A stretch of DNA of 64,000 nt from Desulfovibrio psychrotolerans (lineage in GTDB: Bacteria; Desulfobacterota; Desulfovibrionia; Desulfovibrionales; Desulfovibrionaceae). The notes under the pieces were generated by a model. It saw nothing but the letters and a program-made list of their open reading frames with translations, searched no databases and was not told where the DNA came from. Shown piece after piece: positions 19,107 through 27,839 of the stretch; the stretch's first letter is position 1, and every line of letters starts with the position of its first letter. The stretch spans positions 124,001-188,000 of the forward strand of contig NZ_BLVP01000043.1 of NCBI RefSeq assembly GCF_013340305.1. Direction: 5' to 3'. Position numbers and translations under genes: made by a program.

Positions 19107-22106
19107 TCAGTGCTCTTTAGGCGCGGCCTGCGGGCATAGTTCCAGCAGGTGGCGCATGGAATCGCAAGCGATGCGCAGTTCGCTTTCCAGCTCGTCCAGC
19201 AGGGGGGGGACGGCGTCAAAGTTTTTACGTGTGGTCTGCTCCACATCCAGCGCAACCAGACGCAGGGCATTGGCGGAAACATTGCCTGCCGCACCCGCCA
19301 CGGTGTGCGCCTTGCGGCTGAGGGATTCTGCATCGCCCTGTCTGTGGAGGGCGCGCATGTCTTCTGCCGCATGGGCATAGGCACCCAAAAATCCTTCCAG
19401 AATTTTCATGTACAGCCATTCCTTGCCGCTTACCCGCTGCACGCCTTCTGTCACATCCAGACCGGGCATGAGGTCGGGCAGGGGGTGGGTGCAGGCAGTA
19501 TCTTCCGGAACTTGCTGCCGGTCGGGGGACGGGAGCGGTTGCGGGGGAACGCCAGCCTGGGGCGGAGAAGGAAAAACGGAGCGTTCTCGGGCCGGAGTGC
19601 CCGGATTGCTGCCCTGACTATTCTGATTGCCCTGATTGTCCTGATTGTTCGGGTGGGATGTGTGGCCCGCATTGTCCGGGAACGTCACGTTGTCCAGAAA
19701 GTTTTTGTTGCCCGCGTTGCCCGTTTCAGCGTTGCCGTCCGTACCTCCCGCCCCGTTCTGCCTGACCGTTGCGTCGGCGTTCTGCTGGCTGCTGCCCGCG
19801 CCGAGCCATTTGCGCAGAACGCTGAACAGCACCCGGCGCTCTATGGGCTTGGTAACGTAGTCGTTCATGCCCGTTTTCAGGGCAAGGTGCCTGTCCTCAT
19901 CCATGACGTGCGCGGTCATGGCGATAATGGGCAGATGGTCGTATTCAGGCGATTTGCGGATGATGCGCGTGGCTTCGAATCCATCCATCTCCGGCATCTG
20001 CAGGTCCATGAGCACCACATCGAAGGTGGCAGAGGCAAGGTGCTCCAGCGCCTTGCGCCCATTATCCGCAATGGTGACGTGTATTCCTTCGCTGGCGAGT
20101 ACCTCGCGCGCCACATGCTGGTTGATGAGGTTGTCTTCTACCAGCAGGGCGCGCACACCCACGAAGTTGCCTTCCGGCACGGCGGCTTCCTCTACGGGAG
20201 GCTGCACGGCGTGGCCGAAGGTTTCCAGTATTACGCGGTGCAGCGAGGCAATTTTGACAGGCTTGAGCAAGAAGGCGCGGATGCCCAGTTTTTCTGCCCG
20301 TTCCACCTCGTTTTCCCGCCCGAAGGCTGTCATGAGCATAACGGGGGGCAGTGCAACCTTGCGCGCCAGCAAGGTTTCCACCAACTGCAGCCCGTCCATG
20401 CCGGGGAGCCGCCAGTCCAGCAGCAGCAGGCCGAAATCGCCCGCCCGGTGTTCCAGCACTTCCAGCGCGGCAGGACCGTCCGCAAGGGACTGGCACCGCA
20501 TGCCCATGGAAGAAAGCATTTTTTCTATGACGTTGCGGTTGCTGACGTTGTCTTCCACAAGCAGCACGGGGCGCGCGCACACGTCTTGCGGGAGTGCATA
20601 CTGCCCCCGCAACTGGTTTTCTGCCAACGGCAACTCCACCGAGAACCGGAACGTGCTGCCCTTGCCCTCTTCGCTCTCCACGGAAATGCTGCCGCCCATG
20701 AGCTGAACCAGTTCGCGGGCAATGGCCAGCCCAAGGCCCGTGCCGCCGTATTTGCGGGTGGTGGAGCCATCTGCCTGCGTGAACATGTCGAACACATGGG
20801 CCTGCCGGTCTGCACGGATGCCGATGCCCGTGTCGCGTACCGAAATGTCAAGCCGGGCATGCTGGCCTGTCTGCTGCCGGGAGGAGATGGCGATGCACAC
20901 CTCGCCCTGCTCCGTAAACTTGAAGGCGTTTGTTACCAGATTGATGAGCACCTGCTTTATGCGCAAAGGATCGCCCAGAAAGCAGAAGGGCACGTCTGCA
21001 TCGACATCTGCCACCAGTTCCACGCCTTTTTCCGCCACCCGGTCGCCGAAGAGGTCTGTTACCTCTTCCAGCACGGTGCGCAGGTCGAAGGGGATGATTT
21101 CCAGCTCGAGCCGCTGAGCCTCTATTTTGGAAAAATCCAGAATGTCGTTGACAATGCCCAGCAGCGACCGCGAGGAGGTCTTGATAATTTTAAGGTATTC
21201 CAGTTGTTTGGCGGATAGTCCGGAGCGCTCTGCAATATCTGCCATGCCGATGATGGAGTTCATGGGGGTGCGCAGTTCATGGCTCATGTTGGCCACAAAT
21301 TCGCTTTTTGCCCTGTTGGCATCTTCTGCCCGCTGCCGGGCTTCTTCCAGTTCCACCGTGCGCTCTGTCACGAGGGCTTCCAGATGCTTGCGGCGGTTGT
21401 TCAGCATCTGGTCGCGCGCTTCTATACGCTCCAGCATGTCGTTAAAGCTGTCGATGAGCGAGCCTATCTCGTCATCGTGCACCTTTTCTGCCCGTACGGA
21501 GTATATTTTATCTTCGGTTATGGAGCGGGCGGTGTCTGAGAGGTGCTGCAAGGGGCGGATTACCACGCGCCGTGCCGCAAGCAGGATGATACAGCCCAGC
21601 AGGGAAACAAGGGCAATGGTGCGTGCCCCGGTGGCAACCAGCTGGTCGTAAAGCTCCTTGCGCACGGTGTCTGACGACACCATGACCAGCACGCTGCCCA
21701 CGAAGCGGTCTTCCATGCGCAGTTCTTCGGAATAGAGCAGCATGTTTCCGGTATGCTGCGCCGGAACGGTGAACAGGCGGGTGCCATCGTTCTGCATGCC
21801 GAAGAAGACGTTGCGGCCATCCTCTTCCAGCACCAGCAGGGCATGGATGCGCGGGTCTGTCAGTTCTGAGAGCATGATGGATTCTACCGCGCGCACGTCC
21901 ACGTTCCATACCGGGCGCAGCAGAATGCTGGCACTGCGCTCTGCCAGCCGCCGGGTGAACTCTTCCAGTTCACTGTATTTCTGCCTGCTGACGGAGAGGT
22001 AGTCCCACGCGCTGAACAGCAGCAGAACCAGCGTGGAGGATGCGACCACAAGAAAGGCCAGTTTTGCCTGCAGGCTGCTCAGTCCGTAATGTCGGGTGTT
22101 CTTCAT
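19107..22106 (-). CDS. Hybrid sensor histidine kinase (HAMP-HisKA-HATPase-REC-REC-Hpt)
   Basis: Inner-membrane phosphorelay kinase, 999 aa. Two transmembrane helices (about residues 15-35 and 162-180) flank a periplasmic sensor of unknown ligand. A HAMP domain and coiled coil follow, then HisKA with His276 in [11 protein letters not shown] and an ATPase domain with [13 protein letters not shown]. The first receiver has Asp in [12 protein letters not shown], the second in [15 protein letters not shown]-terminal Hpt domain has its His in [12 protein letters not shown]. Between REC2 and Hpt lies a low-complexity linker rich in Asn, Gly and Gln, encoded partly by a 9-bp repeat. No partner regulator is adjacent, so it is an orphan kinase. 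Confidence 0.93.
19614..19649. repeat. 9-bp tandem repeat in the kinase linker (4 units)
   Basis: ctgattgcc-type units repeat four times with a 9-bp period and encode NxQ-type tripeptides in the linker between the second receiver and the Hpt domain. Confidence 0.8.
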
Positions 22107-23951: not shown

Positions 23952-24499
23952 CAGTACAGATATTTGGGTTTGAGCGTGCTCTCCGCCGCCGTTGCCGTCT
24001 CCTGCGCCATGGATTCCTGCGCCTGCCGTTCGCGCAGGCGTTCCTCCTGCCGCAGGGCGCGGCGGCGTTTGGCTTCCTCGTTGCGGCGGGCGTGGGTGGG
24101 AGTTTCCAGAATCAGCGGCGGCGCGGGCGTGGGTTTGCGTTGTTCGTCCATGGAAACGAAGGTGAGATAGGCCGAGGCGATATGGCGCACGTCGCCGGTG
24201 AGCAGGTTTTCCGCCTCCACGCGTACGCCTACTTCCATGGATTTGGAGCTTACCATGTTTACGCTTGCCCGCAGAATGAGCAGTTCGCCCACATGGGCGG
24301 GGGCCTTGAACTCCATGCGGTCTATGGAGGCCGTGACCACCGTGCAGCCACGGGCGTGACGCATGGCGCAGACGGCTCCGGCAAGGTCTATCTGCTTGAG
24401 AATGACACCGCCGTGCACGTTGCCCGCCGGGTTGGCATCTTCCGGCAGTGCCCGGTGCGTGGTGGTGGTTTCGCTTTCGCTGACTTTGCGTCCTTCCAT
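23951..24499 (-). CDS. Acyl-CoA thioesterase, hotdog fold
   Basis: 182-aa hotdog-fold thioesterase of the YciA/BACH type that hydrolyses acyl-CoA to free acid and CoA in the cytoplasm. Family signatures are NPAGNVHGGVILKQIDLAG near the N-terminus and ASAYLTFVSMD in the later strand. After about residue 130 comes an unusual highly charged Arg/Glu-rich extension of about 45 residues, predicted helical, ending in KPKYLY. The start at 24499 has a GGAG site. The stop overlaps the murJ start, so it is the first gene of a two-gene unit; no functional link to MurJ is known. Confidence 0.88.
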   Translation of the reverse strand: MEGRKVSESETTTTHRALPEDANPAGNVHGGVILKQIDLAGAVCAMRHARGCTVVTASIDRMEFKAPAHVGELLILRASVNMVSSKSMEVGVRVEAENLLTGDVRHIASAYLTFVSMDEQRKPTPAPPLILETPTHARRNEEAKRRRALRQEERLRERQAQESMAQETATAAESTLKPKYLY

Positions 24500-24757
24500 G
24501 GTGTCTCCGTTCTTGGCGATTCGCGGCAAAATTTCCGGAAACAACGCTCCGGCAGGCAACGATACTGCGCTTTTGGCACTGCGGCAAGCCGGGGTTGCGG
24601 TGCGATGCGGGAGGGTGACGGCGGCAGCCGTTCCGAGTATACAGGGCGGGGGGGGCGGCAGCATGGATGGTCCGGATGCGGATTGTCATGGGCATGCGCT
24701 TCTTGACGATGTGGTACCTGCGGCGTAGCACGATAATACGAAAGAAGGGCAAGGTGC

Positions 24758-26968
24758 ATGGACAGCCAGACCGGCACGGTGAAGACAGGCAGAGAGAGCC
24801 GTTTACGCGAAGGAACAGGGTTTCTGCGGGTACGCATAGCCGTGCGGGACATTGCCGGACGGCTGAGTAACCACCCTGTGCTGCTTTCCATGCAGCGGGG
24901 GCTTGCTCTTGTGCTGCCGCTGGTCATGGTGGGCGCCCTTGCGCTGACCATTCGGGATTTTCCTGCCGCAGCCCTTCCCCGGCTGCTTGATTCCCTGTTC
25001 GGCGGCGTGTGGCGCGAAGTGTGCGATGCAATTATCGCCGGGTCGTTCGGCATAGCCGCGCTGGGGGTGTTATGCGCCTACAGCGCCGCCACCGCAGCTA
25101 TTCACAACCAGCGGCGGGCCGACCTTGCGGTGAGCCCGGCCATGACCACGGTGGTTGTGCTCTCCTGTTTTTTTGTGCTGGCCGCGCCTCCGAGTGATGT
25201 GGCGTGGAATGCGCTGTTGTCCATGAATCCCGGCCTGCCGCTTGCCATCATCGTGGCTGCGGCGGGCAGTGCTGTTTTTCTGCGCCTGTGCCGGGTGCGC
25301 GGCCTGCAACTGCCCATGGGCACGGTGGGCAGCGATCCCGTTGTGCGCGACGTGCTGACGCTTACTCCCGCAGCCATGCTGACCATTCTGCTGTTTGCCG
25401 CAGGGCGTGTACTGTTTGCGTCCGCCGGGGTGACTGATCCGGGCACGTCGCTGGGGTTGCTGTTTGTGGACGTGTTCCGCAACGCAGGCGACGGTCTGGG
25501 CTACGGGCTGGCCTATGTGGGCTTTACTCAGGTCTTGTGGCTGTTCGGGGCGCACGGGCCGAACATGCTTCCTTCTCTGGAGGCAGGTCTGCACATTCCT
25601 GCCGCGCTGGCCAATGTGCAAGCCCTTGCCATGGGGCAGGAGCCTGCCTTCGTTTTTACCAAATCCTTTTTTGACGCCTTTACCCGCATGGGCGGGTCCG
25701 GCTGCACGTTGTGCCTTATCGCGGCGATTCTGCTGCGGGGCAAGAACAGCGGCAACGCACGGCTGTGCCTCTTTGCCCTGCTGCCTGCGCTGTGCAATGT
25801 GAACGAGCCGGTTCTGTTCGGCATTCCGCTGGTGCTGAACCCGGTATACGCCATTCCGTTTGTGGTTACGCCGCTGGCGCAGACCCTGCTGGCGTATTGG
25901 GGGACGATACTGGGTCTTGTGCCGCACACGGTGCCGGGGGGCGCGTGGACAACGCCTGTCTTTTTCAGCGGCTTCATGGCCACAGGCTCATGGGCGGGTG
26001 TAGCCATGCAGGCGGTTAACCTTGTGCTGGGCGTGCTGCTGTATCTGCCCTTTGTGCGGTTTGCGGACGCGCTGTGCGAGAGGCAGGGCAGGCGGGTGAT
26101 GCACGAGTTGGCGGAGGCGGCGGAAAGCCGCGTGCCCGGTCCCAACGGGTATAAGTGCCTTGACCGCCCCGGAGATGCGGGGCGCGTTGCCAAGGTGCTT
26201 GCCAACGATCTGGAGCGGGCGCTGGCGACCAACACCCAGCTCTTTCTGGAATATCAGCCGCAGGTGGACAGCAAGAACATTCGAGTGGTCGGGGTGGAGG
26301 CACTGCTGCGCTGGCGGCATCCCGTGTACGGCATGATTCCGCCCTGCATAACCGTTGCGCTGGCAGAAGATACCGCAACCATAGGCAGGTTGGGGCTGTT
26401 TGTGCTGAGTGAAGCCTGCGCGCAACGGCAGGCGTGGCTCGGGTGGGTTCCCGAAGGGCTTGTCATGTCTGTGAACGTGAGCCCGCCGCAGCTCAGGGAC
26501 CCGGAATTTGCCCGCAGGGTGCTGGCTGTGCTGGCAACACATGACCTGCCGACAGAGCTTCTGGAACTGGAGATAACGGAGACATCGATTCTCTCGCCTG
26601 GGTCCGGGGAGATGGAACGGCTGCGCCTTTTGCGTAGTAAGGGGGTGCGCGTGGCCATTGACGACTTTGGCATGGGGCACACTTCGCTGCGGTATTTACA
26701 GGAGTTTCCCGTGGATACGGTGAAGATTGACCGTTCCCTGACCGTTTCCGGGCCGGACGGGGTGAGCGGCCATATTGTGCACAGCATTGTGGATTTGGCA
26801 GGCAGGCTGAATATTGCCACCGTGGTGGAAGGGGTGGAAACGCTGGAGCAGCTGGAGCGGTTCGGTGCGTTGGGGTGCACGCTTTTTCAGGGCTACCTGT
26901 TCAGCCGCCCGCTTTCCGGCGAGGAGTGCCTGAGCTTTATCCGTAGGCAGCAGAAGCCGCGCAAATAA
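24758..26968 (+). CDS. PTS EIIC-like sugar permease fused to an EAL c-di-GMP phosphodiesterase
   Basis: 736-aa membrane protein. Residues about 35-445 match the lactose/cellobiose-type EIIC membrane domain, with the conserved His in GAHGPNMLP (H266) and the NEPVLFGIPLVLNP motif (E350). Residues about 480-730 are an EAL domain with all catalytic and metal-binding positions visible: VEALLRW (E514), NVSPPQL (N573), LELEITETS (E605), AIDDFGMG (D635, D636), VKIDRS (K656), EGVET (E691, E694) and QGYLFSRPL. It is thus expected to hydrolyse c-di-GMP. No EIIA, EIIB, EI or HPr gene is nearby, so the EIIC part is more likely a sugar sensor than a transporter. Start supported by AAGGTGC before the ATG. 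Convergent with the ABC permease pair. Confidence 0.88.
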   Translation: MDSQTGTVKTGRESRLREGTGFLRVRIAVRDIAGRLSNHPVLLSMQRGLALVLPLVMVGALALTIRDFPAAALPRLLDSLFGGVWREVCDAIIAGSFGIAALGVLCAYSAATAAIHNQRRADLAVSPAMTTVVVLSCFFVLAAPPSDVAWNALLSMNPGLPLAIIVAAAGSAVFLRLCRVRGLQLPMGTVGSDPVVRDVLTLTPAAMLTILLFAAGRVLFASAGVTDPGTSLGLLFVDVFRNAGDGLGYGLAYVGFTQVLWLFGAHGPNMLPSLEAGLHIPAALANVQALAMGQEPAFVFTKSFFDAFTRMGGSGCTLCLIAAILLRGKNSGNARLCLFALLPALCNVNEPVLFGIPLVLNPVYAIPFVVTPLAQTLLAYWGTILGLVPHTVPGGAWTTPVFFSGFMATGSWAGVAMQAVNLVLGVLLYLPFVRFADALCERQGRRVMHELAEAAESRVPGPNGYKCLDRPGDAGRVAKVLANDLERALATNTQLFLEYQPQVDSKNIRVVGVEALLRWRHPVYGMIPPCITVALAEDTATIGRLGLFVLSEACAQRQAWLGWVPEGLVMSVNVSPPQLRDPEFARRVLAVLATHDLPTELLELEITETSILSPGSGEMERLRLLRSKGVRVAIDDFGMGHTSLRYLQEFPVDTVKIDRSLTVSGPDGVSGHIVHSIVDLAGRLNIATVVEGVETLEQLERFGALGCTLFQGYLFSRPLSGEECLSFIRRQQKPRK

Positions 26969-27032
26969 GCGTCTCCTCCGCGTCAGCCCGTTTTCTCCCC
27001 TGCCGGTACCCGCCGATATCTGCCGATACCTG

Positions 27033-27839
27033 TCAGTACATTCCCCGTTTGCGGTAGGCGCGGGTGACAGAGATTTCCACCACCACGAAGAGCAGCACCG
27101 GAACCGCCAGAAAGAGCAGCGTGAGCAGGCTTGCCACGGAGCGGTTGGCATCGCCCAGATGGGGAAACAGGTAGCCCGTGTACGAGGGCACCACCCCGCC
27201 GCCGATGAGAAAGACCAGAAAATACTCGGAAAAGGCCACCAGAAACACCACGCTGCCGCCTGCAATGATGGCGGGCACCAGCAGGGGCAGTTCCACCCGC
27301 ACCAGCCGTATCCACCAGTTGGCACCCAGGTGCTGCGCATACTGCCCGTATTCCGGCCCGAAGGACTGGAACCCCGTTATCAGCGCGCGCAGCATGTAGG
27401 GATAGCTGAAGGTGGCAAGGGCAAGTACCACGCCGGGCAGCGAATCTGCAAGGCCCACCCGGATGAAAAGATAATGGATGCCCATGGAAAAGGTCATGGC
27501 GGGCACCAGCGCGGGGGCGAGGAGCAGGCCTTCCAGCAGGGTTTTACCCCTGAACGTGTGGCGGGCGAAGTGGTGGGCGGGGGCAAGGCACAGGACAAGG
27601 GTGAGAGCGGTGGTGAGCAGCGAATAGAGCACGGAAAAGCCCAGATGCCGCGCGATGTCTGCCTGCCTGTGCGTGAGGAAGGCCGCCCCCTGCCCGGACC
27701 ATTGCGCGGGAAGCAGGTCCGGCCATTGCCAGCCGGGAGCGGCGGCGTAGAGTATGAGCACCACCAGCGGCCCCGCGAACAGGACAAAGAAAAGGCACAG
27801 CAGCAGTGCCTTGGCGGGCAGGTTGACTGTGCGGCTCAC
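27033..27839 (-). CDS. ABC transporter permease (PotC-like), second of a pair
   Basis: 268-aa inner-membrane subunit with six predicted helices and the binding-protein-dependent permease domain; the cytoplasmic EAA-like loop is the region around QHLGANWWIRLVRVELPLLVP. Its start overlaps the stop of the upstream permease by four bases (ATGA), so the two are co-translated. The gene ends about 65 bp before the convergent EIIC-EAL gene. No ATPase or binding protein lies on either side. Substrate unknown; PotC/ThiP/phosphonate-type systems all look similar. Confidence 0.85.
   Translation of the reverse strand: MSRTVNLPAKALLLCLFFVLFAGPLVVLILYAAAPGWQWPDLLPAQWSGQGAAFLTHRQADIARHLGFSVLYSLLTTALTLVLCLAPAHHFARHTFRGKTLLEGLLLAPALVPAMTFSMGIHYLFIRVGLADSLPGVVLALATFSYPYMLRALITGFQSFGPEYGQYAQHLGANWWIRLVRVELPLLVPAIIAGGSVVFLVAFSEYFLVFLIGGGVVPSYTGYLFPHLGDANRSVASLLTLLFLAVPVLLFVVVEISVTRAYRKRGMY

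Follow-up and report, generated by a model that had tools for sequence, protein, structure and literature searches.

The window, a 64,000-nucleotide stretch of the Desulfovibrio psychrotolerans genome, encodes on its plus strand a protein of 736 aa (24758..26968, ATG start) in which a phosphotransferase system (PTS) permease domain, EIIC, is fused to an EAL domain. The fusion gene is divergent from a gene of the thioesterase superfamily and convergent with two ABC permease genes (PF00528; 27033-28780, minus strand); on the other side of the permease pair lies a plus-strand gene for an FtsJ-type methyltransferase, and neither an ATPase gene nor one for a binding protein was seen to adjoin the pair directly. 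The window also encodes, on the minus strand at 19107-22106, a hybrid histidine kinase with HAMP, HisKA and HATPase domains, two receiver stretches and an Hpt domain. A promoter scan of positions 24300-27200 found no sigma-70-like site, and six terminator-like sites were counted in the same interval, compared with 3.3 in shuffled sequences.

Both parts of the frame recognised in the initial annotation, a lactose/cellobiose-type EIIC and an EAL domain, were recovered above cut-off by domain search: Pfam PTS_EIIC at residues 48-372 (E 3.2e-21; 76.2 bits, cut-off 30.7) and Pfam EAL at residues 483-718 (E 7.5e-63; 212.5 bits, cut-off 31.3). The EIIC domain was delimited as residues 32-439 (24851..26074, plus strand) by PF02378, TIGR00410 and an alignment with ChbC. 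The score of TIGR00410 (lacE) on the fusion, 200.1 bits, is under the curated cut-off of 236, which four sister fusions pass (L045, 248.5; L059, 302.3; L061, 307.3; L032, 236.4), and among NCBIfam models the lactose/cellobiose IIC families are nearest to the EIIC part, with scores under their curated cut-offs. Compared by sequence with the PDB, the EIIC part matches a single entry at E<=0.001, ChbC (3qnq; E 6.7e-41). The two residues previously singled out as key, H266 (codon at 25553..25555, plus strand) and E350 of the NxNE motif (25805..25807, plus strand), align with ChbC residues 250 and 334, and from the roles assigned in ChbC-type EIIC we take them to be sugar-site residues.

The EAL domain (residues 483-718; 26204..26911, plus strand) has E514, N573, E605, D635, D636, K656, E691 and Q711, the eight positions that we take to be catalytic-type; the full set reported earlier is thus confirmed, and the domain is a predicted c-di-GMP phosphodiesterase with every catalytic-type residue in place. 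These positions are intact in 93 of the 93 fusions that cover them (94 of 94 for E514 and N573), and position 694 is E in 91 fusions, D in one and N in one. Two fusions gave no EAL region in this check, L076, which ends inside the domain, and L192, for which the longest-frame rule is suspected of having chosen a wrong frame; a third, L173, is cut off. An AlphaFold2 model built on a 34-row alignment of fusions (mean pLDDT 86.1, pTM 0.77) predicts a single helix at residues 412-456 (25991..26125, plus strand) that comprises the last membrane helix and a cytoplasmic extension, followed by a second helix at residues 472-491 that runs into the EAL domain. The linker element at residues 471-488 (PGDAGRVAKVLANDLERA; 26168..26221, plus strand) resembles the linker of fusions that end in a histidine kinase. 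Foldseek matched the EAL part to BifA and the EIIC part to ChbC, although the overall pose of the EIIC part differs from that of ChbC (10.9 A rmsd over 437 columns).

The EIIC query matched 27 of 149 genomes of the family; 26 of these matches are full length, with all 26 frames aligning through the EAL domain, and the remaining one is a fragment whose frame has 84 residues. The fusion is rare and patchy: none of the eight other genomes of the same genus that were listed has a match. Of 395 genomes searched across the phylum, 8 matched at 1e-20, and their frames are 734 to 802 residues long (counted without an EAL scan). Wider searches matched 60 of 344 genomes in the phylum of L059 (Treponema), 32 of 185 in the phylum of L068 (Synergistaceae) and 45 of 391 in the class of L062 (a Clostridia member), with fused and stand-alone EIICs mixed. 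A contig scan for relatives with the single pattern [FC]N[VI]NE.. yielded at least 589 confirmed loci, the best 80 of which comprise 35 EIIC-EAL fusions (among them L076, which leaves its contig after 34 EAL residues), 4 EIIC-kinase fusions and 41 stand-alone EIICs. The comparisons below concern 102 fused EIICs (96 with EAL and 6 with a histidine kinase) and 84 stand-alone transporter EIICs. According to organism titles and NCBI ranks, the fused rows belong to Thermodesulfobacteriota (Desulfobacterota), Pseudomonadota, Bacillota, Spirochaetota and Synergistota. The Pseudomonadota rows bear out the statement in the initial annotation that such fusions exist in other proteobacteria, and the architecture is not special to sulfate reducers.

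A viral origin was rejected: among viral contigs there were 59 pattern matches, none of which was confirmed as a relative. A C. difficile copy in a record labelled as a plasmid lies between a gene for an MBL-fold hydrolase and rlmH, in surroundings that look chromosomal; and the match on a Caballeronia plasmid is a PAS-GGDEF-EAL protein without EIIC. The EIIC parts of the marine proteobacterial fusions L034, L218, L219 and L221 are divergent. For the marine fusions (Photobacterium, Pseudoalteromonas, Vibrio and Tritonibacter) a sensor profile beats a transporter profile by 3.7 to 26 bits, a margin too small for placement on either side. VPP is present in the EIIC part of none of the four, and in the Photobacterium fusion the sugar-site histidine is replaced by N.

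The D. psychrotolerans genome (3.79 Mb, 99.86% complete) was examined for PTS partners of the fused EIIC. The fusion gene is its single match to PF02378. No EIIB of PF02302 scored over the cut-off (best E 0.63) and no EIIA of PF02255 was found, these two models constituting the EIIA/EIIB search. HPr and EI are encoded on contig C8, adjoining a mannose-family EIID. A mannose-type PTS is thus present at least in part, whereas the fused EIIC has no Lac-type partners in this genome. The earlier statement that genes for EIIA, EIIB, EI and HPr are missing from the vicinity is correct, but EI and HPr exist elsewhere in the genome, and given their presence PTS input may reach the fusion through an unusual EIIB.

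The surroundings of the fusions elsewhere are similarly poor in partners. Among the best 80 of the at least 589 confirmed loci, EIIA or EIIB is encoded beside 0 of 39 fused and 39 of 41 stand-alone EIICs (35 with both; Fisher p 8e-21, with related rows), as judged by phmmer (E<=0.01) with a single C. difficile EIIB and a single C. difficile EIIA as queries; the flanks extended to at most 6 kb and were shorter where a contig ended. At later loci, with flanks of about 1.5 kb, partners were found at 0 of 43 fused loci, where some genes are repeated from the earlier set, and at 24 of 37 others, which include two cut-off loci that could be fused (L178 and L197). Non-fused loci without EIIA or EIIB amount to 8 of 21 and 5 of 16 among those with short flanks, and at such loci a lack of neighbouring partners is therefore less informative. 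In the C. difficile record an EIIB/EIIA pair is located about 7 kb from the fusion, followed by an EIIC gene. A transport operon was rejected as a reading of the fusion locus, its partners being absent from the genome of D. psychrotolerans (PF02302, PF02255) and from the 39 fusion loci among the best 80. No recurrent partner that might name a ligand was noticed by eye in the frames of 12 loci. The Cohaesibacter fusion (L051, 74-5738) adjoins genes that by eye resemble those of an ABC transporter for sugar and of a regulator of the LacI type, a possible hint of a ligand.

Lac-family EIIA (PF02255) is absent from 54 of the 56 fusion genomes searched, a subset of all fusion genomes that consists of 26 from the family (D. 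psychrotolerans included) and 30 others; one genome may have entered the count twice, since L011 (G032) and L048 (G151) have identical EIICs, and completeness is 54-74% for three of the 56 and without a figure for 30. The same model matched 3 of 14 control genomes, those of E. coli, B. subtilis and L. lactis. One exception is a Sporomusa (L136), in which the EIIA frame is flanked on one side by a stand-alone EIIC-like frame and on the other by a further frame; in the other exception (L135) the largest frames listed included no stand-alone EIIC-like frame. Fusion genomes outside the family have PF02302 in 14 of 30 cases, in several long frames and several short single-domain frames (about 95-130 residues), and in 8 of the 149 family genomes, two of which (G048 and G129; 2 of the 26) also carry the fusion. 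In these two genomes a frame of about 580 residues contains two copies of PF02302; it is probably a fructose permease since it adjoins a frame that by eye resembles 1-phosphofructokinase.

Phosphoryl groups of the PTS are carried by EIIA and EIIB and not by EIIC. This, together with the lack of Lac-type EIIA in nearly all of the fusion genomes searched, makes it very improbable that the fused domain reads the phosphorylation state of the PTS, even though EI and HPr are present in the D. psychrotolerans genome and a Pfam census of c-di-GMP proteins (PMC8846402), in the portion of its text available, includes PTS_EIIC as a rare entry among its receiver domains and classes it as a phosphoreceiver.

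The presumed sugar site is kept in the fused EIICs. H266 and E350 are each present in 101 of 102 mutually related rows, a single row (L149) lacking both. The contig-scan pattern fixes N347, N349 and E350 largely by construction in the rows obtained with it (39 fused, 45 stand-alone), and the 60 fused and 39 stand-alone rows from whole-genome searches, which involved no motif pattern, were therefore counted separately: among these, H266 and E350 are each found in 59 of 60 fused rows, and N347 in 60 of 60 fused compared with 35 of 39 stand-alone rows. Positions with a weighted conservation of at least 90% on both sides include W261, G264, H266, G267, G312, G313, G315, N347, N349, E350, W397 and P400, among others.

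The P-x-x-V-P motif behaves differently from the sugar site. At the aligned place P189, V192 and P193 occur together in 84 of 84 stand-alone EIICs and 0 of 102 fused EIICs, and an unaligned search found the motif in 84 of 84 and 1 of 102, respectively; in the window protein the place of the motif is occupied by PMGTVGSD (residues 186-193; 25313..25336, plus strand). As a mark of the transporter family, P-x-x-V-P is a result of the present comparison and not a published criterion. The loop concerned would be cytoplasmic, judging from the helix count of the AlphaFold2 model and from its positive charges, and in transporters the motif may serve EIIB.

The fused EIIC could conceivably still move sugar, by facilitated diffusion or as a PTS permease with a borrowed EIIB, and report its transport state to the EAL domain. 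The retained fold and sugar-site residues would suit such an activity, as would EI and HPr in the D. psychrotolerans genome and the PF02302 proteins of some fusion genomes. We nevertheless regard it as unlikely, given a genome with neither PF02302 nor PF02255, the absence of EIIA and EIIB at all 39 fusion loci among the best 80 of the at least 589 confirmed, and the loss from every fused EIIC of a motif that every transporter in the comparison has kept at that place.

Phylogenetic analysis separates the two kinds of EIIC. In an unrooted tree of 186 rows, the 102 fused and 84 stand-alone EIICs lie on opposite sides of a single branch (SH-aLRT 100), and in a tree of 105 rows thinned by identity the same branch has support of 100/100 and appears in 200 of 200 bootstrap trees. 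The 186-row tree was built without seven loci that repeat earlier genes, three cut or split loci (L178, L179, L197), one with a short EIIC match (L203) and one on a very long branch (L034); L149 and L202, whose long branches had met, are additionally missing from the thinned tree. The fused EIICs are a coherent group apart from the transporter EIICs, parted by one fully supported split, and the trees, being unrooted, give no direction as to which side is ancestral. Pairwise distances of EIIC and EAL are strongly correlated (Mantel r 0.907, n=94, with none of 999 permutations as high), as expected for a pair of domains that have long been joined.

Six fusions carry a histidine kinase in place of the EAL domain: two of Treponema (L059, 5953-8925; L071, 3767-5854), one of Spirochaetia (L061, 4697-7774) and one from the same phylum as the latter (L138), one of Synergistaceae (L080, 5932-8814) and one from its phylum (L168). 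All six contain HisKA, five have HATPase in the same frame and four have REC (L059, L061, L080 and L138, the last cut off). The frame of L071 stops after HisKA and the next frame looks like the remainder of the kinase, which is thus split over two frames; the L168 stretch ends upstream of any REC position. A PAS model scores over its cut-off in four of the six and weakly in L061 and L071. In the 105-row tree the six form one group (100/92) nested within the EAL fusions, next to an EAL fusion of Synergistaceae (100/98). All six retain a recognisable linker as well as the helix ahead of the EAL strands, an indication that the kinase has taken the place of an EAL domain. These sequence comparisons suggest that the EIIC domain has been wired to different signalling outputs, c-di-GMP hydrolysis or a histidine kinase.

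EAL enzymes often act as dimers, and the EIIC part might serve merely to hold the EAL domain at the membrane as a dimer, with no sensing. This would accord with the listing of ChbC and MalT as dimeric elevator-type proteins in the available portion of PMC7329351. It is improbable in view of the near-invariance of the sugar-site residues in 102 fused EIICs, despite an identity to the window protein of 30-57% for 33 fusions, of the greater constancy of N347 in fused than in transporter rows of the unbiased set, and of the service of a single EIIC type to two outputs.

We consider it probable, on the evidence of sequence, that the fusion is a transporter-derived receptor for a sugar or oligosaccharide, in which the EIIC has left phosphoryl-coupled transport and relays to the EAL domain. 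The EIIC would still bind sugar, probably a beta-linked disaccharide or oligosaccharide; an elevator-like movement or a locked state would be passed through the long last helix and the conserved linker to the EAL domain, and c-di-GMP hydrolysis would change with the state of the EIIC. Sugar binding, the identity of the ligand, the side from which it enters, the sign of its effect and coupling within the dimer are what we infer. The initial annotation's proposal, in which the EIIC binds sugar as an input to the EAL domain and does not import it, gains indirect support from the absence of Lac-type EIIA and EIIB, the coherence of the fused group, the kept sugar site, the lost motif and the swapped output. 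A broader reading, in which our confidence falls slightly short of even, is that the fused EIICs of five phyla form a receptor family that parted once from the PTS transporters, abandoning EIIB coupling and keeping the pocket, and that a frozen or futile elevator reads external or self-made oligosaccharides, the EIIC being an input module that can be exchanged between c-di-GMP hydrolysis and histidine kinases.

To our knowledge, the signal sensed by most c-di-GMP enzymes is unknown. The EIIC fusions would offer a specific receptor class with a predicted type of ligand, two key residues and a comparison between two outputs. If the receptor reading is true, the published classification of EIIC among phosphoreceivers would be corrected, and a PTS permease would join the transporter folds known as sensors.

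ChbC works together with EIIA and EIIB. The ChbC of B. cereus (3qnq), a Lac-family EIIC, matches the fusion EIIC both in sequence and in structure, and in addition to H266 and E350 the fusion residues W261 and W397 have counterparts in it (245 and 382); unlike the fusion it has no output domain, and it has P-x-x-V-P. The EAL part is matched best, both in structure and in PDB sequence searches, by the EAL domain of BifA (8arv), the structure of which comprises that domain alone, without EIIC.

A 2011 census of C. difficile by Bordeleau is said possibly to list an EIIC-EAL protein. A full-text literature search for PTS_EIIC with EAL as a protein architecture returned only PMC8846402, in which the domain pairing is the same as here and the available text contains no analysis of clade, motif, partner genes or output swap. 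The EIIC-EAL fusion was not found in the available portions of PMC10513181, PMC2453333, PMC10100716, PMC3754575, PMC6123363 and PMC12900739, and no EIIC-histidine kinase fusion was recognised in a literature search that covered listings and abstract openings, with most subscription papers outside its scope. The EIIC-EAL pairing was known already, and what is new here is the evidence for a single putative sensor family, with its kept sugar site, lost transport features and swapped output.

Among c-di-GMP phosphodiesterases under the control of sugar, the nearest case is V. cholerae PdeS, on which sugar status acts by way of EIIA-Glc, as described in the available portion of PMC6877527; unlike the fusion, that system consists of two proteins, acts through EIIA phosphorylation and has no fused EIIC. 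In the EIIC fusions, as in known fused sensors derived from transporters, a transporter fold is covalently joined to a signalling output. Of the demonstrated cases in which a transporter domain has become a sensor, the nearest, according to the available portion of PMC5764959, is Ks-Amt5, an ammonium transporter domain fused to a histidine kinase. It differs from the fusion in fold and in ligand, and was shown biochemically, whereas EIIC-EAL is known here from sequence; in both, a transport protein appears to have been turned into a sensory module covalently joined to its signalling output.
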